NCBI GenBank assembly: GCA_012523595.1
Contig: JAAYIG010000211.1
Location: 1-39,749, forward strand
Length of the DNA stretch: 39,749 bases
Reading direction: 5' to 3'
Origin: Fibrobacter sp.
GTDB lineage: Bacteria; Fibrobacterota; Chitinivibrionia; Chitinivibrionales; Chitinispirillaceae
Position 1 is the first letter of the stretch. Each line of letters starts with the position of its first letter. The notes beneath the pieces were generated by a model. That model saw nothing but the letters and a program-made list of their open reading frames with translations, searched no databases and had not been told where the DNA came from. Positions 6,325 through 20,165 of this stretch are shown here, in pieces. The position numbers were made by a program, and so were the translations under genes.

Positions 6325-7893
6325 CTATTTTTCCAATACCCACTTCTTTACATCCCGCTTTTCCCTTGTTTTCCCCACTACAAGATAAACACCCGGACCA
6401 ACCTTTCCCCGGGTCCTTATCCTATTCAGGTCTGAACCGGTTGACATTGAATTGCCGGAGAAACGGGTGATAATTCTGCCCTTAATGTCGCAGATTATGA
6501 ATTCTTCAACCGGTTTTGCTGATGTAAAAGTGATGCTCTTTCTTCGGGATCTGTCAGATACCGATGACGAAACCTGGGAAAGTGAATCATCGATCATATA
6601 ATAAACAGAATCGGAACCTGTGACAATGCAGGGGCGGGCGCGGAAAGAAGGTCCTTTTACCACAGATGCAATCTCCTCTGCTGTCCAGGTTGTCTCAGGA
6701 ATCAAACTGCCAAACCGCCAGTTCTTAATGGAACTATCGCTTACGTGGCGAAGAAAGCCCTTATCCAGTATCCAGAGAGAATCACCATCGGTTCTTACAA
6801 GCTGCGGTCTCTCCTCCCAGTCCGGACCCTCCTTAATGGAGTTAAGCATCGAGTCATTTACCGGTATCCTGTCCTGGAAATCATCGAAATGCCAGAGTTC
6901 CTTTCTGCTTTGTACACTTACAATTGTCCGCTTTACACCGTCAGGAATTTCAGGAGCACAGGTGATGGTTGCCGGACATCCGTTAAGAAGAACCGCAGAA
7001 CTGTCCCGGGTATCTAATCCATAGGCATATATCACATGCTCCGTATTATCCATCAATGAATACGGTGTGGGAAGAGAAAACCCCAGACTGCAGTATCCAC
7101 GCAGGTCGCAAAGGTACTGACGACTTTCATTGGCTGTCAATTGAACCATTACAGCCCCGGAACTGCCTTTTTGACCACCAATATAGAGCTGAACCTCTAT
7201 TGACCTCTGATCATCATTTCTATCCTGTGCCCATCCACGGAGAATCTGACAGTCAACTGTTTCAAGCCGGCCGACAGGCGGGGCATTGTCAGTATCATTC
7301 ACACTGCCGCCGGGATTATGAAGCCAGCGGTAGTAGCAATGCTCTGAGTCTGTCAGGTATGTGTAGATACGGTCATACTGAGATGAAGAGTGTGCAGCGA
7401 TGTAAGCCACACCATCGGTGACTCTTACCACGACAGTTGCATGTGTCCCCGTACCGTATTCATTACTGTACATAAGCACATCACCGGGCCTTATCTCAGG
7501 TGGGGGAGGAAGCATGTACCCGATGCCCAGATCGGTCCATCCATGGTAAGTCTTGAGACACTTCTGAAGTTTGTCTGCTCCTATCTCTTCCCTGCCGCAC
7601 GGGTATCCTCTGCAGATACCATCCCCCTGATTCAGATCTTTGTGGCCGCCTTCAAGAATGCATTGCGAAACGAAGTTTGCACAGTCTCCGCCATGTGATG
7701 CATAACCGCAGTAGGATGTTCCCCAGTATGACCAGGGGGTGCAATCGATGTAATCACCGCACTCATGGTTTGGAGTTTCCCAGTATTTCTGTGCATAGGA
7801 GACCACATCATCGATATTGTACTCTGCGGATGACATGAAAAAGAATCCTGGGATAAACAGAAGCAAGTTTATGTAAAGCGTTTGTCTTCTCAT
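6325..7893 (-). CDS. Secreted amidase-domain (Amidase_6-like) protein with T9SS-type sorting domain
   Basis: This 522-residue protein has a signal peptide (about 1-23) and a Cys/His amidase domain of the PF12671 type (about 25-195). Cys71 lies in GGDCANFVSQC, His151 in GTGTHATVVV, and His168 is a possible third residue. A beta domain of about 100 residues follows (LRGWAQDRNDDQRSIEVQLY, then HVIYAYGLD), seen in other secreted hydrolases. The C-terminal 70 residues (EEFIICDIKGRIITRFSG, then GVYLVVGKT) look like a type IX secretion type A sorting domain. It probably hydrolyses peptide or amide bonds outside the cell; the substrate is unknown. The ATG overlaps the stop of the upstream HEAT-repeat gene by 4 bases, so the two are coupled. 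It is convergent with the 5028-6251 lipoprotein gene. Confidence 0.8.
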   Translation of the reverse strand: MRRQTLYINLLLFIPGFFFMSSAEYNIDDVVSYAQKYWETPNHECGDYIDCTPWSYWGTSYCGYASHGGDCANFVSQCILEGGHKDLNQGDGICRGYPCGREEIGADKLQKCLKTYHGWTDLGIGYMLPPPPEIRPGDVLMYSNEYGTGTHATVVVRVTDGVAYIAAHSSSQYDRIYTYLTDSEHCYYRWLHNPGGSVNDTDNAPPVGRLETVDCQILRGWAQDRNDDQRSIEVQLYIGGQKGSSGAVMVQLTANESRQYLCDLRGYCSLGFSLPTPYSLMDNTEHVIYAYGLDTRDSSAVLLNGCPATITCAPEIPDGVKRTIVSVQSRKELWHFDDFQDRIPVNDSMLNSIKEGPDWEERPQLVRTDGDSLWILDKGFLRHVSDSSIKNWRFGSLIPETTWTAEEIASVVKGPSFRARPCIVTGSDSVYYMIDDSLSQVSSSVSDRSRRKSITFTSAKPVEEFIICDIKGRIITRFSGNSMSTGSDLNRIRTRGKVGPGVYLVVGKTREKRDVKKWVLEK

Positions 7894-8843
7894 TTCCCGG
7901 AATCTCTGCTTCTCTTAAGAATTTTGCCGGCGGTATCACGGACTCTTCTGTCGGAATCCTGAGTTTGCGCTCTGCGAATTGATTCCATTGCCCTGGAGTT
8001 TCTTCCGGCAAATTTCCCCAGTGTTTCTAGTGCCCGGATTCTGGTCCATTTATCCGGAGAGCTCCGGGCTATTCTATCCAGTGCATCAGCAGCCGTATTT
8101 TCTTTTCCCATTCTTGCCAGAGTTCCTGCGATTGTGATTTTGCGGTCATCCGGGAGATCATTATATGACAGTGCTTCTGTTAAGGCCGCCGATTCATCCG
8201 GGCCGCCAATCTCTCCCAGTGCCCATGCCACACAGTCAAGACAGGCCAGGTTTGAAGGACTCCTGCGGAATTTCTGGTCATTATAAGCGTTTAACAGTAC
8301 CTTGCGGTTATCATCTTTTTCCCCGAATGAGACAAGTGAGATTGCAGCCTGAATCCGCACCGGATGACTTGCAGAGGTTAAAAGACTTTTGAGGTAGAGG
8401 ATATTCTTATATGCATCGGAATCATCCATTTGACTGGTCTGTATGAGTGTCTTTATCATAACGATGGCTGCAGGCCCGGTCTCATCTTCAGGTGCTTTAT
8501 CAAGAATATCCCTGGCGGCTTTAAGTGCCAGTTCGATATTGGGACCGTCTGCATAGCCAAGCCGTTCAAGGGCTTCACGCACCAGTCCGGGATCATTTCT
8601 GTTTTTATGAAGGTAATCTATCCAGTGTTGAAATGTCCGTCCTACTTCGGCCTGTTTTTCCCGGATTCGCCGGGAGGCTTCATCTCCGGAATGAACTTGA
8701 CGAAAGAAACCTGTGCTTTTGCCGTCGATGATTATATGGCGGAACTTTCCCTCTCCGGGAATCTCGAATGTTTCTGCCATGAGGATTGCTGACTGGAGAA
8801 TAAGAATCAGCCATATACTTGACACAATGCGGGACTTCTTCAT
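7890..8843 (-). CDS. Exported HEAT-repeat protein
   Basis: This 317-residue protein begins with a signal peptide (MKKSRIVSSIWLILILQSAI, cleavage near AMAE). From about residue 125 it consists of paired helices typical of HEAT/PBS-lyase repeats: HPVRIQAAISLVSFG, CVAWALGEIGGPDESAALTE, KWTRIRALETLGKFAG, DSDRRVRDTAGKIL. Such repeats form protein-binding solenoids and have no catalytic role of their own. It is the first gene of a two-gene unit with the secreted amidase, overlapping it by 4 bases. It may act as a periplasmic partner or scaffold for that enzyme, but only the coupling supports this. An AAAAGGAG lies rather far (about 12 bases) from the ATG. Confidence 0.75.
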   Translation of the reverse strand: MKKSRIVSSIWLILILQSAILMAETFEIPGEGKFRHIIIDGKSTGFFRQVHSGDEASRRIREKQAEVGRTFQHWIDYLHKNRNDPGLVREALERLGYADGPNIELALKAARDILDKAPEDETGPAAIVMIKTLIQTSQMDDSDAYKNILYLKSLLTSASHPVRIQAAISLVSFGEKDDNRKVLLNAYNDQKFRRSPSNLACLDCVAWALGEIGGPDESAALTEALSYNDLPDDRKITIAGTLARMGKENTAADALDRIARSSPDKWTRIRALETLGKFAGRNSRAMESIRRAQTQDSDRRVRDTAGKILKRSRDSGK

Positions 8844-9006: not shown

Positions 9007-10134
9007 TTATTGCTGGATTGTCAAAAAGACGTTATCCTGTACCCTTGTAAGGAATTCATGGATGGAAAACAATGGTTTCCTGAAGAAATTCAGGTCTTTT
9101 CTTGATTTCCTGTCCTTAACAAACCTTATTACTTCCGGAAAATATTCCAAAGCGATAATACCTGCAGCCAATGTCTCATCATTTCTCTGGAAGACTTTTT
9201 TCAGCATCGAAAACATGATCTCATTGAACCGCAGTGTCGGGAGAAGAAGTCCGGCCTCAAGAAGTGCCCACACCCTTATAATCTGTAAAGCTGCAGATTT
9301 CATCCCCTCAGATGTCAGAAAGCCGGCCCAGCTCAGGCGTGTTCCGAAAGAGAAGAAAGAATACATGCAGAAGATGAAAAGAAAGAGCAGCCAGAACCTT
9401 AGAGGGTGAATCAGGGGTTTTACAGAACGTTTCCATAAGGAAATGGACAGGGTTAACAAACCAGCCAGAGACAGGATAATCCTGAAATCCTGAAAAATAA
9501 ATAGGAGCAGGCAGAAAGCAAGAAGGGAAATTGACCCGATGATGTGACGGGGAGCAAAACCCCTGAGTTGAAATCCGGCTCTTTGTTTCCCGGAGATTTC
9601 CATAGAGTCAAGGATTCTAAAAACCAGAGGCACTATGATCCCGATTATGCTTCCAAAAAGGACGGATGCTGCTGCCATGAAGGGGATCTGGTAAAAGACA
9701 GAAAAATTATGAACTACAAGGAAATACACTGTGACAAGCTGACCTGCGTTATGAAACAGCGCACCCGTTATTCCTATCCCGACAGTCCCCAGAAGTCCTT
9801 TGCTGCCCAGAATTCTCCACACTGCACCCATAGCCAGAGTTGCAGTGATTCCTCCGCTGAGACTGAGTGCCAGAGTAAGAAAGGAGAAGCCAAAGTAGAA
9901 TCCGGAAATCCATGATCTTAGAATTGTGTAAAGAACCGCGTCGGCAGTACCGTATTTGATAATCCAGATCATGGTGACAGCATTCGCGAGACCTGGTTTC
10001 AGCCATGGAAAAAATGGCAGTCTGGGGAAAAAAAACTCCAGTGCGTTTAAAGCCACGGCAACAAGCAGCCAGACGGCTTTACGGATAGTGTCCGGGGTGA
10101 TCTGGTTTTCAGTGTGTGACTGCATCGGGTCCAT
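9007..10134 (-). CDS. Gx-transporter (PF07456) fused to an EcfT-like membrane domain
   Basis: This is a 375-residue polytopic membrane protein. Residues about 15-175 match the Gx transporter / 'heptaprenyl diphosphate synthase component I' family: PFFPWLKPGLANAVTMIWII, then FGFSFLTLALSLSGG and GALFHNAGQL. The family name is historical, and the proteins look like substrate-binding membrane components of ECF-type uptake systems. Residues about 205-375 have further membrane spans and a C-terminal amphipathic region (LAAGIIALEYFPEVIRFVKD) resembling the transmembrane EcfT/CbiQ component. The family's ARG-type coupling motifs are not clearly present. The N-terminus overlaps the upstream NusG-domain-II gene by 26 bases. 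No ATPase component is nearby. The substrate is unknown. Confidence 0.7.
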   Translation of the reverse strand: MDPMQSHTENQITPDTIRKAVWLLVAVALNALEFFFPRLPFFPWLKPGLANAVTMIWIIKYGTADAVLYTILRSWISGFYFGFSFLTLALSLSGGITATLAMGAVWRILGSKGLLGTVGIGITGALFHNAGQLVTVYFLVVHNFSVFYQIPFMAAASVLFGSIIGIIVPLVFRILDSMEISGKQRAGFQLRGFAPRHIIGSISLLAFCLLLFIFQDFRIILSLAGLLTLSISLWKRSVKPLIHPLRFWLLFLFIFCMYSFFSFGTRLSWAGFLTSEGMKSAALQIIRVWALLEAGLLLPTLRFNEIMFSMLKKVFQRNDETLAAGIIALEYFPEVIRFVKDRKSRKDLNFFRKPLFSIHEFLTRVQDNVFLTIQQ

Positions 10135-10483
10135 TTTTCTCTGATGCCTTGATTGAGATCAGTATCCGGTTGGGAACACAAACGATTTGGCTTCTGGCAT
10201 GGCTGATCGAGCCGGAAAGGACACAGATCTGGTGAGGGCAGGGGGAACTGAGAACCGAAACCTTACCCTGCTTTATCATGATTGTCAGAGGGCCGTTTTC
10301 ACCGGTTACTTCGAAAATTCTGTCTTTGTCAACAGGGTATTCCGCCAGGATATGGTTTCCTCTGTTTATCACAACTCTTCCGGGAGTTACTGATTTAAGC
10401 ACCGGAAAGGTAAACACTGCTCCTGAAAGTACAAGGACAATCAGTATGGCATCTACCCAGGTAAAACGCCTCAGCGGAATCAT
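10109..10483 (-). CDS. NusG domain II-containing exported protein
   Basis: This 124-residue protein has one N-terminal membrane anchor (about 9-28) and a small beta domain matching the NusG_II family: residues about 80-113 contain CPHQICVLSGSISHARSQIV, with the characteristic CPxxxC pair, and then PNRILISI. It is probably anchored facing the periplasm, and is unrelated in role to transcription factor NusG. NusG_II and Gx-transporter genes are often neighbours in bacterial genomes and may be linked to flavin or redox systems. That context is from general knowledge, not visible here. The downstream Gx gene overlaps its 3' end by 26 bases. Confidence 0.8.
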   Translation of the reverse strand: MIPLRRFTWVDAILIVLVLSGAVFTFPVLKSVTPGRVVINRGNHILAEYPVDKDRIFEVTGENGPLTIMIKQGKVSVLSSPCPHQICVLSGSISHARSQIVCVPNRILISIKASEKNGPDAVTH

Positions 10484-10869
10484 ATTCTTGATCGGTGCTC
10501 TCTGTTATGGTATAGTATTGTTATTGTTTACGTTAATCTTTCGACTCATCTTCAAGACCATGCACAGGATATGTATTACGATTTCCTTTGCGGATCATTA
10601 ATATACGGTATGCTTTAATGAATTCAGTAATCTGCAAGGCAAGTTCGGTAAAAAAGAAACAGAGCAGAGTGGAGGTGGGAAGAGTGGTTCTGGACATCTC
10701 TGCGCTTCTTCTGCTTGCAAACTGGCTGATCAGCAGGGTTTTTCATCTTCTCTGAATTTTCCCTAAATGAATGTTTTTTTGTTTCTCTTTTCGGAATCGG
10801 TATCGGTATCGAATCCTGGTCTTTTACAGCTAATATTCCGATTCGAATACTGACCTCGTTTGAAAGAGA
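10484..10869. other. Intergenic region with only weak small-ORF signal
   Basis: This stretch lies between the NusG_II gene start and the end of the 603-residue gene. It contains one possible 45-residue plus-strand ORF (10618-10755), listed separately, and an imperfect tandem GGTATC repeat near 10800. No clear terminator or RNA gene is seen. Confidence 0.4.
10618..10755 (+). CDS. Possible small membrane protein (45 aa), weak call
   Basis: ATG to TGA encodes MNSVICKASSVKKKQSRVEV followed by a hydrophobic stretch, LDISALLLLANWLI, and ends SRVFHLL. The basic N-terminus followed by one hydrophobic helix resembles a small membrane protein. However, no ribosome binding site precedes the ATG, and no family is recognised, so it may be chance. 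Confidence 0.2.
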   Translation: MNSVICKASSVKKKQSRVEVGRVVLDISALLLLANWLISRVFHLL

Positions 10870-12681
10870 CTAATCTTCTATAAATCTTGCTGCCCAGCTC
10901 CGTACATTTTTACCGTTAAGAATATGAAATTTTCTCAGACGGTTAAGTGTCTCTCCTGAAAAAGAGTTCATTGGAATCCATACAAGATGCTTTTTCAGTT
11001 TTGAAGCAATGCTTTTCAGTACCGGACCGGGTTTCTTTGCTGCTATGTAACCCACATTTTTTTCCGAGCTGAAAAGTAATGCTCCATAGGTCAGTCGTGT
11101 GGCGAGATCAGGGAAATCCATGCCAGAGGTCATGCTGAAAATATCCGGGATAGTTCTGGGAGGAAAGAGAAGCGAAAGTCCCCCGTAGTGGCATCTGGCA
11201 ATACCCGGCCCGATCAGGTTCTCCATAGGATCTGTTGCATAAAAGGTTAACGTAGACTCCTCATTGTGTTCTGCGTACCAGGTGGCGCGGTGCGGATACC
11301 TGTGGTCATTTTTACTGTCGAATATGATCACCACCGTGTCAATTTTACCCTTTGATGGCGGAAGTTCCTTGACATAAATGTCACCTGTGTGCCAGTTCCG
11401 CAGTGTCTCCCGGATATCTATGCCATCCTTTACTGATGTGGTAAACTTCTCGGATCTGATCAGATCCTCCATCAGGACTCTCAGAGTCTTGTTCCGCACA
11501 AAGCTGTTGAAACTCTCGATTCTGCGGTCTTCGGGAATATGGGAGCACATACCCATGGGATTCCAGGAATAACGGTATCTCTTTTTTCTTTCGATCGATG
11601 GATCCGGTTTTATGGAAATTGACCTCCAGTACATCTGGAAATCCCTGAACAGGTTCACTGAATCGAATCTGCCCCATTCAGGAATGAGAATCCGGTCAAT
11701 GCCCGTACCGATCAGCTCGTTTCTGTTTACTGCCGGAATATAGGGGTAATAGCGTGCACTTTTCAGGATTCGCACAGCATAGGCGTTTCCTCCCACTCCT
11801 TTTGCTGCCTCTACTATGTCAAACAGATCCGGAATTATCCTTCCGGACATGACCGTGATATTACGCAGAAAAGTGAGAGCCGCCTGAATTCGTACAGGGG
11901 AGAGGCTCATGACCTCATCCTTGCTGTCGAAGTACTGGTCTCTTGTCTCTCTGAAAAGATCCTTTACCGATTCCACGATATCGAAAGGAGGGGCGAATGG
12001 ATCGTAGCGCTCCTTTTCATATTTACCAGTGATAAATGGAAGTTCTCCAAGAGCAAAGTAAAGATGATCGGGGTTTATCAGCCCGGAAAGAATCGAATAC
12101 GAACGCTCTTCATCGAAGCGCATGTTGTATGTCTTTTCCTGCCTGAAATGGAAGATTGTCCTGACAAAATTCCTGTAATGAAGAAGGACAAGGATATTCT
12201 TGTACCCGGCTTCAAGCTGGTGAATCCTTCCGGCCATATATTGACATTCGATATCATCCGGAGAACCCTCTTCAGGTAATCCTGCGGCCTTGAGGCAGAG
12301 AGTGTTATAAATGTCGATACCGATCCGTGTTTCCATATATTCATCGGGGAGCGGTGCGAGGAGTCGAGGGACTCTGAGTTCCGATGATCCTATGCAGAAG
12401 GAGGGAATATGATGCAGGCTGCTCTGACGAATGCTCTCTACGGCTGCGTCGCAGGGATCAACCGGGATATAGAAGAGAGGCTCGGAATATCCTCGTGCCA
12501 CGACCGCGCTTATCAAGGGAAGGTTTTCAATTGCTGCGGAGATGTGGTCCTGGAACACTGACGGAATATCCACAGCTACGCAGTCATACTTTCCTTTAAG
12601 AAACAGCTCCCGTACCTGTCTAGCGAAAGTCAGTTTACCGTGAAGGTATGGGATAATTTCTACATTTCCGGTAAGTTTCAC
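10870..12681 (-). CDS. Uncharacterised protein paired with a MoxR-type ATPase; TraB/PrgY-like N-terminal region
   Basis: This 603-residue, largely soluble protein has no signal peptide. No family is recognised with confidence. The first ~190 residues follow the layout of the TraB/PrgY (TIKI/EreA-like, also DUF5682) group: an early His (YLHGKL, His14), a following helix and strand (VRELFLKGKYDCVAVDIPSV), then a late YMAGRIHQLEAGYKNILVLL with His/Arg (LHYRNF) where TraB proteins have the M-x-x-R-I and VVGxxH motifs. Some catalytic-looking positions are altered, so activity is uncertain. The C-terminal half is Arg/Tyr-rich with a strand-rich segment (about 445-520, DTVVIIFDSKNDHRYPHRAT). Its start overlaps the ATPase stop by 4 bases, so the two are probably made in fixed ratio and work together. 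The function is unknown. Confidence 0.65.
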   Translation of the reverse strand: MKLTGNVEIIPYLHGKLTFARQVRELFLKGKYDCVAVDIPSVFQDHISAAIENLPLISAVVARGYSEPLFYIPVDPCDAAVESIRQSSLHHIPSFCIGSSELRVPRLLAPLPDEYMETRIGIDIYNTLCLKAAGLPEEGSPDDIECQYMAGRIHQLEAGYKNILVLLHYRNFVRTIFHFRQEKTYNMRFDEERSYSILSGLINPDHLYFALGELPFITGKYEKERYDPFAPPFDIVESVKDLFRETRDQYFDSKDEVMSLSPVRIQAALTFLRNITVMSGRIIPDLFDIVEAAKGVGGNAYAVRILKSARYYPYIPAVNRNELIGTGIDRILIPEWGRFDSVNLFRDFQMYWRSISIKPDPSIERKKRYRYSWNPMGMCSHIPEDRRIESFNSFVRNKTLRVLMEDLIRSEKFTTSVKDGIDIRETLRNWHTGDIYVKELPPSKGKIDTVVIIFDSKNDHRYPHRATWYAEHNEESTLTFYATDPMENLIGPGIARCHYGGLSLLFPPRTIPDIFSMTSGMDFPDLATRLTYGALLFSSEKNVGYIAAKKPGPVLKSIASKLKKHLVWIPMNSFSGETLNRLRKFHILNGKNVRSWAARFIED

Positions 12682-13607
12682 TGCTCATTCTCGTCTGAGT
12701 CTGGATTGAGTTCATCATCATCTGTGAAGAAAAAATCGCCCATGCTCATCGAAGGGAGGTGCTCTCCTGATAGTTTTCTTCTGGCGGCCAGGTTTTCCAT
12801 GTCAAGCGCTTCCTTGCCGAGAATCTGTAAAACCGCCTTGTTGAAAACCTCCGCTGCTTTGATATCCCTTTCTGCCTGCCCAAGTTTCAGGGAGTACCGC
12901 ATGATGTTTATCCCGTCACGGATCGAGTAGGGAAGGTCTAGTCTATGTGCTTTCTGGAGAAATTCGATGCAGAGATCCAGTATTTCTTCGCTGGAAAAGG
13001 GGATGTTGTATTTCAGGATCTTCAGTTCATCTTCTCTGTCCGGAAATGGGATCTGGATTCCAGGCTGCAGTCTGGACATGATATAATCCGGGATTTCGAA
13101 TGTAGAGGAGTCCTCGTTCATGGTGACAGCGGCTCTGAAATCCTTGTGTGCCGTGATAGTGATCCCTGCTACAACCGATTCCACTGTCCTGCGATTGTCA
13201 AACAAACCAGCCAGAGAAGCCCAGGACTTCTCCGACATTCTGTTTCCCTCATCCAGAATTCCAACTCCTCCTGTCAGTACCGCTGAAAGCAGAGGGCTGG
13301 CATGGTAACTTATTTTGCCCTGTTCGGAAAGCACAGGAGTAACAAGGAGATCTTCCGGACGTGTATCGGAAGTACACTGCATCACGTAAACATCCTGCCC
13401 CCTGCTTCTGGCTGCTGCTATAGCCAGAGTGGTTTTGCCGATTCCGGGAGGTCCGATGATACGGGGGACAAGGGGAAAATCCTGATCGGAGAGAACAAGC
13501 CAGCAGGCAAGCAATTGCCGCATAGACTCAGATTGCCCGATCCACTCGATATTTCCTTTGAGGGGATGGGAGAGTGTCAGTTCGACATTATCGATTGTCA
13601 GTTTCAT
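12678..13607 (-). CDS. MoxR-type AAA+ ATPase
   Basis: This 309-residue protein has Walker A GPPGIGKTT (about 52-60), Walker B GVGILDEGNRM (Asp-Glu about 119-120), a sensor-1-like TMNEDSS and an arginine finger MSRLQPG. That is the AAA_5/MoxR arrangement. These ATPases remodel or activate partner proteins, typically a neighbouring gene product. The C-terminal tail is acidic (DDDELNPDSDENEQ). I chose ATG at 13605-13607 because AAGGA lies five bases upstream and it clears the upstream stop. A longer form from 13646 would overlap the CsgG-like gene. It sits between the CsgG-like and 603-residue genes, with a 4-base overlap with the latter. No VWA-domain gene, the usual MoxR partner, is adjacent. 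Confidence 0.85.
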   Translation of the reverse strand: MKLTIDNVELTLSHPLKGNIEWIGQSESMRQLLACWLVLSDQDFPLVPRIIGPPGIGKTTLAIAAARSRGQDVYVMQCTSDTRPEDLLVTPVLSEQGKISYHASPLLSAVLTGGVGILDEGNRMSEKSWASLAGLFDNRRTVESVVAGITITAHKDFRAAVTMNEDSSTFEIPDYIMSRLQPGIQIPFPDREDELKILKYNIPFSSEEILDLCIEFLQKAHRLDLPYSIRDGINIMRYSLKLGQAERDIKAAEVFNKAVLQILGKEALDMENLAARRKLSGEHLPSMSMGDFFFTDDDELNPDSDENEQ

Positions 13608-13615
13608 CGTTTTCC

Positions 13616-14602
13616 TTACTTGAAATAGCGCCTGACTTTCGACCAAAGATCATCCTCTATAGTTTCTATGATCTCATCAAACGCATTTAAAAAAGGGGTT
13701 TCATCATGCCAGTGTCTGTCCCCTGTTCGCTCTATGTTTACAGCTACCAGGGGGGAAGAAGCTGAAGGCGAGTTGAATATCGAAAGTGTGATATTGGCGG
13801 TTCCTCTGTACTGATTGAGAATATCCGGACTCTTCCTGTATGAATTCAAATGTATCTTTATCACTTTCGTGTTGCATTTACTGGATGCCAACTGGCTTTT
13901 TGTGGCTGGAATTACTTTTCTGTCCAGGGCTTCTTCCAGAGCATCTGCGAGGTCTTCCTCAAGCTCTTCCTTTTTATCCGGATCAAGAACAAATCCGATT
14001 ACTGATTTGTCAAGTTTGAGCCGTTCCATGTAATATGAACCATTGCACGGCAGATCATCCTGTGGCTCTCTGGATGCTTCAACTGGGGGGGCTTTGTTCT
14101 CTGCAATGACTTTGCTGGAAGAAGCTACCTGCCCTCCAGCAATTTTACGGGCAATCTCGGGAATTATTTTAACTACATCCTCAATTTCTCCTTTTACATC
14201 TTCGGAAACGACCTTTTCCATTTTTCCTGTCTCGACATTTACACTCCTCACATTGACCATAAACATGGATCCAAGCTTGCCAATAGAACCGGTTATAAGT
14301 CTCTGTACTCCCAGCATACGACCGATCTCCACCATACAACCCTGTTCAGCACAGGTCAAACCGGATTGCTGAAATCCCTGCTCCTTTAAGACTTCCTGCA
14401 TCTGTTCCCGCTCCATCACATCAACCATGCCGGTAGAGAAGAACTCATTCCGGAGCCGGTCAGAAATCAGTTCCGTTTCTCCTTCGGAAACTCCATTTGT
14501 GTTTTTAAGTGTCAGGATTGCGATCTTCAGTTTTTTATCCTGCTGTTCGGCCGAAACAGCCAATGTGCAGATAACCAGAATGTAACAGATAATCTTTCTC
14601 AT
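13616..14602 (-). CDS. Exported CsgG/LpoB-like protein with second alpha/beta domain
   Basis: This 328-residue protein has a signal peptide (MRKIICYILVICTLAVSA). The N-terminal domain (about 22-165) resembles the CsgG / LpoB nucleotide-fold family: LKIAILTLKNTNGVSEGETE, then LRNEFFSTGMVDVMERE, MQEVLKEQGFQQSG and LGVQRLITGSIGKLG. A second domain (about 180-328) has a long acidic helix and ends TIEDDLWSKVRRYFK. It has no clear lipobox, so it is probably periplasmic. The start at 14602 is preceded by GAGAGGGG four bases upstream; an earlier in-frame start at 14629 lacks this. It is the first gene of a compact unit: the ATPase ATG follows its stop by 9 bases. CsgG-like proteins often accompany envelope assemblies; the role here is not known. 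Confidence 0.75.
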   Translation of the reverse strand: MRKIICYILVICTLAVSAEQQDKKLKIAILTLKNTNGVSEGETELISDRLRNEFFSTGMVDVMEREQMQEVLKEQGFQQSGLTCAEQGCMVEIGRMLGVQRLITGSIGKLGSMFMVNVRSVNVETGKMEKVVSEDVKGEIEDVVKIIPEIARKIAGGQVASSSKVIAENKAPPVEASREPQDDLPCNGSYYMERLKLDKSVIGFVLDPDKKEELEEDLADALEEALDRKVIPATKSQLASSKCNTKVIKIHLNSYRKSPDILNQYRGTANITLSIFNSPSASSPLVAVNIERTGDRHWHDETPFLNAFDEIIETIEDDLWSKVRRYFK

Positions 14603-19173: not shown

Positions 19174-19548
19174 TCAATCAAGGTTATATACACCAATTTC
19201 TTTGAGCAGATCTCTTATCAGAAAAGCAGAGACGGGTTTTTCAAGAAAGCAATATGCTCCGGCAAATATCACCTTTTCACGGATCCTGTTGTCGTCAAAA
19301 GCTGTAAGTACTATTACTTTGCTTTGTGGAGAAAGGTTTTTGACAAATTCCACAATCTTCAACCCATCCATCTCTGCGGTCCCGGACAAACACAAATCCA
19401 CTATCACAGCTTCATAATGTTGCTCTTTAAGGCGATATAGTGCTTCTGAGACAGTCTGGCTCGTGTCTACAGCAACATCATTACTGCTTAAAAGTTTCTT
19501 ATAGGCAAGAAGGATACTCTCTTCATCATCAGCCAGAAGAATTCTTTT
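19174..19548 (-). CDS. Single-domain response regulator
   Basis: This 124-residue protein consists only of a receiver domain. It has the acid pocket LLADDEES, a phospho-acceptor Asp in VIVDLCLSG, the conserved Thr in VLTAF and the Lys in FLEKPVS. There is no output domain, so it must signal by protein contact or phosphotransfer. I chose the ATG at 19548, which starts MKRILLADDE as its paralogue does; the 11-residue extension from 19581 has no support. It is a clear paralogue of the divergent gene at 19785, sharing the LLAxxKLLS, VDLxLSGT and FxEKPVS segments. Confidence 0.9.
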   Translation of the reverse strand, partial: KRILLADDEESILLAYKKLLSSNDVAVDTSQTVSEALYRLKEQHYEAVIVDLCLSGTAEMDGLKIVEFVKNLSPQSKVIVLTAFDDNRIREKVIFAGAYCFLEKPVSAFLIRDLLKEIGVYNLD

Positions 19549-19784
19549 CATGATCTGAGCAATGCGCAAAAGAAATGCCATCTCATATGATATTGAAATA
19601 AGTGCTTACATCCGGTGATCACATGAATTATTTTTATTTACCCCTCACGTCATTCCTCACCTGATAGGTATTCCACCAGGACTACTTGGAAGATTTAATT
19701 TGCCCAGAGATATTTTTCCACTGCAGGGGTTCACACAGGCTATGAGAAATGATATACTGAAAGAAGCTTCACGTGAGGATCTTA

Positions 19785-20165
19785 ATGGATAAAAAACGCA
19801 TTTTAGTGGTAGATGACGAGGAGGCAATTCTCCTTGCGTTCCGGAAACTCCTCAGCCGCCCCAATGTGGAAGTGGACACATGTGAATGCATTGAGGACGC
19901 AAAGAGAAACCTGGATTCAATCTACTATGATGCGGTTATAGCTGACCTCAGGCTCTCAGGTACTCTTGGACAAGAGGGATTTGAAATTATCTCTCATATC
20001 AGAAGTAAATCAAAGGAAACCAGAATTGCTCTTATAACAGCCTATGGCAGCAGCGGGACGCTTGAGAAAGCCATGAGCCTCGGTGCAGATTTCTATTTTG
20101 AAAAGCCGGTTTCGATGCAGAACCTTAATGAAGTGCTTAAAAGCATTGGAATCAGAGAATCATGA
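19785..20165 (+). CDS. Single-domain response regulator, paralogue of the divergent one
   Basis: This 126-residue receiver domain starts MDKKRILVVDDEEAILLAFR. The phospho-acceptor is Asp in VIADLRLSGT, with Thr in LITAYG and Lys in FYFEKPVS. There is no output domain. ATG at 19785 follows GAGG by six bases; the in-frame GTG at 19773 overlaps that site and is unlikely. It shares a divergent promoter region of about 235 bases with its paralogue. Its stop overlaps that of the convergent threonine aldolase gene by 6 bases. Confidence 0.9.
   Translation: MDKKRILVVDDEEAILLAFRKLLSRPNVEVDTCECIEDAKRNLDSIYYDAVIADLRLSGTLGQEGFEIISHIRSKSKETRIALITAYGSSGTLEKAMSLGADFYFEKPVSMQNLNEVLKSIGIRES

Follow-up and report, generated by a model that had tools for sequence, protein, structure and literature searches.

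The window analysed here is a 39,749-nucleotide stretch of DNA, contig C211 (GenBank JAAYIG010000211.1) of a Fibrobacter sp. genome (assembly GCA_012523595.1; 4.1 Mb, 99.5% complete). It carries three genes that are tightly packed head to tail on the minus strand and encode a CsgG/LpoB-like exported protein, a MoxR-type AAA+ ATPase and a 603-residue protein, referred to here as TBL (Table 1). The initial annotation described the three as one compact unit. Our comparison bears out the genes, their strand and their packing, including the 4-base overlap of the MoxR and TBL genes (12678–12681), whereas the gap between the CsgG-like and MoxR genes measures 8 bases (13608–13615) and not 9. The TBL frame is conserved in distant relatives, down to 31–33% identity within the phylum and at 30% identity on a Neochlamydia plasmid, and these are therefore real genes rather than chance frames.

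The conserved unit comprises two genes, MoxR and TBL, and not three. Within the window's phylum, 42 of 167 genomes carry TBL (E 0.001 or better) and 43 carry this MoxR (E 1e-40 or better), and all 42 TBL genomes fall within the 43. TBL is also present in 56 of 77 genomes from the phylum of a Nitrospina-titled genome and in 20 of 64 from that of a genome titled Gemmatimonadetes, and on the Neochlamydia plasmid it lies beside an AAA gene. Of 95 locus rows, a set that includes places counted twice under two locus numbers, 89 have MoxR upstream of TBL and on its strand; in the remaining six, TBL is cut by, split across or starts no more than 181 bases from a contig end. These counts are taken from locus tables other than a neighbour table made with a simple gene caller, which misses some MoxR and TBL genes. 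Across 73 distinct pairs, the MoxR and TBL distance matrices correlate with r 0.965 and the trees are similar. Nitrospina-type loci hold the pair by itself, flanked by constant neighbours that are mostly on the opposite strand. No TBL match is found in phages, and the 55 pattern matches in viral contigs contain no true relative. One genome (G172) carries two full TBL copies, and in another (G173) the full copy is followed closely by a short C-terminal TBL remnant with a TAG.

The CsgG-like gene, by comparison, is an occasional neighbour outside the conserved core. A profile of this gene matches at 6 of 41 Fibrobacterota loci (locus set without genome G165), and loci of other phyla give no match. 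It occupies the same position in five other genomes from several families, and sister loci disagree on its presence (absent at L006 and present at L077; absent at L074 and present at L076). A DUF2225 gene lies upstream of MoxR at 18 of the 41 loci, and both genes occur at two; at some of these loci the sequence stops too soon upstream of the pair to reveal either. Because the CsgG-like gene is present at so few loci, the three genes do not stay together in relatives, on which the initial annotation had staked its proposal, and the envelope arm that it drew from the exported protein is unsupported. MoxR and TBL do stay together. The exported protein passes the Pfam cut-off of CsgG (PF03783, 33.3 against 20.8 bits), over residues 18–110 only and the first half of the profile; its LpoB score falls slightly below the cut-off (20.6 against 22.3 bits).

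Table 1. Features of the MoxR–TBL locus and its surroundings in the window.
Feature	Position	Strand	Remarks
MoxR-type AAA+ ATPase, first gene of the conserved pair	13607–12678	-	309 aa
TBL, second gene of the conserved pair	12681–10870	-	603 aa, GTG start
TBL residues 1–195, DUF5682-like, likely TIKI/TraB-type fold	12097–12681	-	hhalign and fold comparison
TBL residues 196–366, mostly helical middle part	11584–12096	-	AlphaFold2 model
TBL residues 367–446, most conserved stretch, candidate ring-contact element	11344–11583	-	identity, pLDDT
TBL residues 447–603, C-terminal alpha/beta domain	10873–11343	-	RNase H-like arrangement suggested only
CsgG/LpoB-like exported protein	14602–13616	-	328 aa; hydrophobic leader judged by eye
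NusG_II-domain protein, downstream neighbour	10109–10483	-	83.1 bits (Pfam)
Hpre_diP_synt_I-family membrane protein, downstream neighbour	9007–10134	-	96.5 bits (Pfam)

The ATPase was assigned to the MoxR AAA+ class by the initial annotation, and it passes the Pfam cut-offs of both AAA_5 (57.5 bits, cut-off 22) and AAA_3 (33.6 bits, cut-off 27). Its closest solved chains are those of Midasin, CbbQ and NorQ. The P-loop, the DE pair and the other nucleotide-site residues are invariant among nine aligned relatives, the pattern DE[GAI][NE]R is present in all 73 sequences and a strict P-loop pattern in 65 of them. Judged from its sequence, the ATPase is an ordinary member of the MoxR class. Four MoxR rows were flagged for an in-frame TGA; in the three that were checked it is the ordinary end stop, and the flags were dropped. 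In the passages of PMC13036017 drawn on here, the pore of NorQ grips a finger of NorD, a GRXLL/I motif in the helix-2 insert of NorQ takes part in this grip, and NorQ also touches the last residues of NorD. By comparison, the pattern of this motif matches only 1 of the 73 MoxR sequences, and 68 of 73 have DL[LIV][VIL][TV]PVL in its place. A ring that holds a partner of another kind would be expected to show such a replacement by another conserved sequence.

TBL of the window gives no match in Pfam, NCBIfam or PADLOC at E up to 1, and phmmer and profile searches against PDB sequences return no true match; the spike-protein matches of the TBL profile (E 0.25 and 0.41) are taken as chance. Ribonuclease_T2, with E values up to 1 admitted (best 0.00056), appears for 11 of 27 TBL members and was likewise rejected as chance, since the one member inspected closely scores 13.6 bits where 26 are required and the window protein gives no match. 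TBL thus passes none of the family tests applied to its sequence. The N-terminal region nevertheless shows resemblances in profile and fold comparisons. A profile of 27 TBL relatives aligned by hhalign with 11 DUF5682 proteins covers residues 5–102 with a probability of 81.5 and E 1.2e-5 in a single comparison, whereas beyond residue 102 the same alignment detects no DUF5682 similarity. The DUF5682 model (PF18934) itself, searched with E values up to 1, matches 2 of 27 TBL members, the better one at E 0.08 and 11.7 bits, and no member passes its cut-off of 26 bits.

In the AlphaFold2 model, residues 1–180 of TBL are well folded. Foldseek returns no match for the N-terminal model at E 0.001, while fold comparison with VIA-align places HopBA1 (Z 7.5), ChaN (7.2), the C-terminal part of PMT (6.7), EreC (6.5), RRSP (6.3) and Bcr135 (6.0) in the top 20, among unrelated rows; none of these scores is high enough to rule out a common arrangement, but the set is coherent. 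In the portion of PMC6254334 consulted, four of these six are named as TIKI superfamily structures, and the catalytic set of the superfamily is given as 2His/2Glu. The top VIA-align ranks for residues 1–183 belong to Tetrahymena complex IV chains (Z 9.2–10.1); one of them, the mitochondrial subunit in chain DQ of 8b6h (Z 10.1), hints at a TIKI-like subunit in that complex. Taken with the DUF5682 alignment, the fold comparison suggests that the N-terminal domain is DUF5682-like and likely of the TIKI/TraB-type fold. The TraB-like N-terminus of the initial annotation was thus a fair guess, to which the profile match and the fold ranks point weakly but coherently. The expected catalytic residues have eroded. 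Two positions were located by way of the DUF5682 alignment: 14, where 66 of 77 sequences have His and the other 11 Tyr, and 38, where 31 of 78 have an acid. The second candidate His, H168, was placed by eye and is kept in 29 of 78. At the positions so placed, with the second Glu unplaced, the 2His/2Glu set is not kept, which speaks against most TBL members being TIKI-type hydrolases.

Conservation of TBL, assessed on 78 distinct near-full-length sequences from 95 matching frames, is concentrated outside this N-terminal domain. Sixty-five positions are at least 97% conserved, mostly within residues 200–603. C379, S380, D385, E389, D419, D422, R424 and R428 are identical in all 78 sequences, and so are E471, H472, E475, S476 and H586 within residues 447–603. 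The mean identity (73 sequences) is 0.332 for residues 1–195, compared with 0.589 for residues 367–446 and 0.53 for residues 447–603. The 367–446 stretch is not confidently folded in either AlphaFold2 model (predicted local distance difference test, pLDDT, <50 in the model that also covers the N-terminus), and in the model built from residue 200 on, pLDDT reaches about 80–92 across much of residues 447–578. The C-terminus is fixed in position, lying 18–22 residues past the start of an FHxLNG motif in all 73 distinct frames with the motif pattern; in nine further frames the last letters of the motif vary and the end point is similar.

For the C-terminal model, Foldseek gives no match at E 0.001 or better. 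The fold neighbours, all weak, are integrase cores, Argonaute, RuvX, ribosomal uS11, the PepQ N-domain, pantothenate kinase and the C-terminal half of UvrC, with a best VIA score of Z 5.1 for the PepQ N-domain and about 3–3.6 for integrases, RuvX and Argonaute. Integrase cores, Argonaute, RuvX, uS11, the PepQ N-domain and pantothenate kinase share a common ribonuclease H (RNase H)-like motif. An RNase H-like arrangement of residues 447–590 is therefore suggested by the models, at scores too low for a claim. Of the places where RNase H nucleases have acids, mapped by eye, only that of D455, which closes the first strand, is kept, with D in 69 and E in 8 of 78 sequences. Rows for NrdR, MCM and histone folds cover the helical middle part of TBL and were set aside as a common helix arrangement.

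In most MoxR pairs the partner is a VWA protein such as NorD or CbbO, and MoxR proteins are understood through these VWA partners. The MoxR–TBL pair resembles NorQ/NorD and CbbQ/CbbO in having an ATPase of the CbbQ/NorQ kind, its own partner gene and a strongly conserved partner C-terminus, and differs from them in that no model finds a VWA domain in TBL. It also resembles McrB/McrC, in which a ring ATPase of the broad class works with a non-VWA partner; in the passages of PMC13036017 drawn on here, McrC places a finger in the pore, so that a VWA domain is not required of a partner. TBL differs in giving no McrC-like match in PADLOC, a library that probably includes McrC. DUF5682 is YehM of E. 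coli, encoded between the MoxR protein YehL and the VWA protein YehP, and AAA–DUF5682–VWA sets occur in E. coli (yehL-yehM-yehP), Iodobacter, Hymenobacter, Deinococcus and Rhizobium. At plasmid DUF5682 loci the order is AAA–DUF5682, with a VWA gene next to or near them in 4 of 5 with annotated neighbours and none listed for the others. Two rhizobial plasmid loci (L127 and L128) read AAA–DUF5682–DUF4132 with no adjacent VWA listed, possibly a VWA-free arrangement. The MoxR–TBL pair is like yehL-yehM-yehP-yehQ of E. coli K-12 in that an AAA gene is followed by a partner with a related N-terminal region; unlike the DUF5682 sets, no VWA, SWIM, DUF4132 or DUF5691 gene is found beside it.

On balance, we favour a reading in which MoxR and TBL form a remodelling machine, with TBL in the partner role that a VWA protein usually fills. 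This bears out the initial annotation in that the gene beside MoxR encodes a TraB/DUF5682-like partner in the place of a VWA protein. As in other members of its family, the MoxR-type protein would form an ATP-driven ring. Because the two genes are paired, we infer that TBL is its dedicated partner, in the place of NorD and CbbO or of McrC. The ring would bind the conserved C-terminal half of TBL, including the invariant 367–446 stretch and the fixed end of the protein, and would twist or pull it, and the more variable TIKI/DUF5682-like N-domain, itself probably not an enzyme given its eroded residues, would recognise the client. Neither MoxR nor TBL has a leader or membrane segment by eye, so the client is probably cytoplasmic.

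Several observations weigh against this reading. One genome (G023) carries MoxR without TBL: its MoxR gene (contig C16, locus L148, 4489–5433) has a DUF2225 gene upstream, and the expected place of TBL is held by an unrelated long TPR-like gene on the opposite strand. At L104 and L086, about 1 and 3 kb separate MoxR from TBL. The correlation of the distance matrices is given equally by plain vertical inheritance. Furthermore, the residues that are invariant in TBL (E, H, S, D and C) would fit an enzyme too. The foremost alternative builds on this last point, with TBL as an enzyme whose active site lies in the C-terminal half and which would be gated or supplied by the MoxR ring, on the model of McrB and the McrC nuclease. 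The 13 C-terminal-half residues identical in all sequences form a pattern usual for active sites, and integrase cores, Argonaute, RuvX and the UvrC C-terminal half recur among the best-ranked fold neighbours; the Foldseek null, the low VIA scores for integrases, RuvX and Argonaute and the conservation of D455 alone among the RNase H acid places, as mapped by eye, make this alternative unlikely.

It is less probable still that the pair is an incomplete DUF5682-type set completed by a partner, VWA or other, whose gene lies elsewhere. The order of DUF5682 sets and four VWA_2 genes over the cut-off in the same genome speak for such a partner in trans, but all four lie on other contigs, one of them about 2 kb from another MoxR (contig C198), and VWA_CoxE has no match in this genome at E 0.01. 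In the window the sole VWA_2 signal is a sub-threshold match in a HEAT-repeat protein (7890–8843; 15.8 bits against a cut-off of 27). The Neochlamydia plasmid neighbourhood contains no VWA gene by eye, the other neighbourhoods not having been scanned with a VWA model. In addition, the DUF5682 similarity stops at residue 102 and a DUF5682 gene is found in none of the 60 relatives searched. The reading of the initial annotation, in which all three genes make up one ATPase system whose envelope arm is the CsgG-like protein, is highly improbable: the tight packing in the window and the shared position in five other genomes agree with it, but the rarity of the gene, the disagreement of sister loci and the DUF2225 gene in its place largely refute it as a general statement, and it could hold in lineages that carry the CsgG-like gene. 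We consider an anti-phage or conflict module the least probable reading. MoxR–vWA ternary sets are proposed as conflict systems in the part of PMC7159879 consulted, and the plasmid copy and patchy presence in the phylum accord with this proposal; by comparison, TBL has no PADLOC match, no variable effector domain is seen, most genomes have one copy, and the pair evolves slowly and congruently, with constant flanks in Nitrospina-type loci.

TBL may, tentatively, represent a further class of MoxR partner that is neither VWA nor McrC, in which a TIKI-type pseudoenzyme domain is fused to a C-terminal domain that is new, almost invariant and either ring-binding or catalytic, and which serves a conserved task in at least four phyla. 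The initial annotation knew of no named system for its gene set, and our literature searches, whose coverage left out most subscription papers and preprints, found no paper on the MoxR–TBL pair. A recurring pair without VWA would mean that a MoxR ring can couple to a different partner fold, and with only two proteins it would be a convenient system in which to study the workings of such rings. Through their common N-terminal region and gene order, TBL is also a lead on the uncharacterised DUF5682/YehM family.

Downstream of TBL, NusG_II and Hpre_diP_synt_I proteins are common neighbours in the order seen in the window. At 24 of the 41 Fibrobacterota loci, TBL is followed by a gene for an exported protein of about 300 residues; the window lacks this gene, and 10484–10869 is spacer only. 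Further along the window, 6325–7893 (minus strand) encodes a 522-residue exported protein that, judged by eye, looks like a cysteine-type amidase, and 19174–19581 (minus strand) and 19773–20165 (plus strand) encode two divergently oriented response-regulator-like proteins that are alike.

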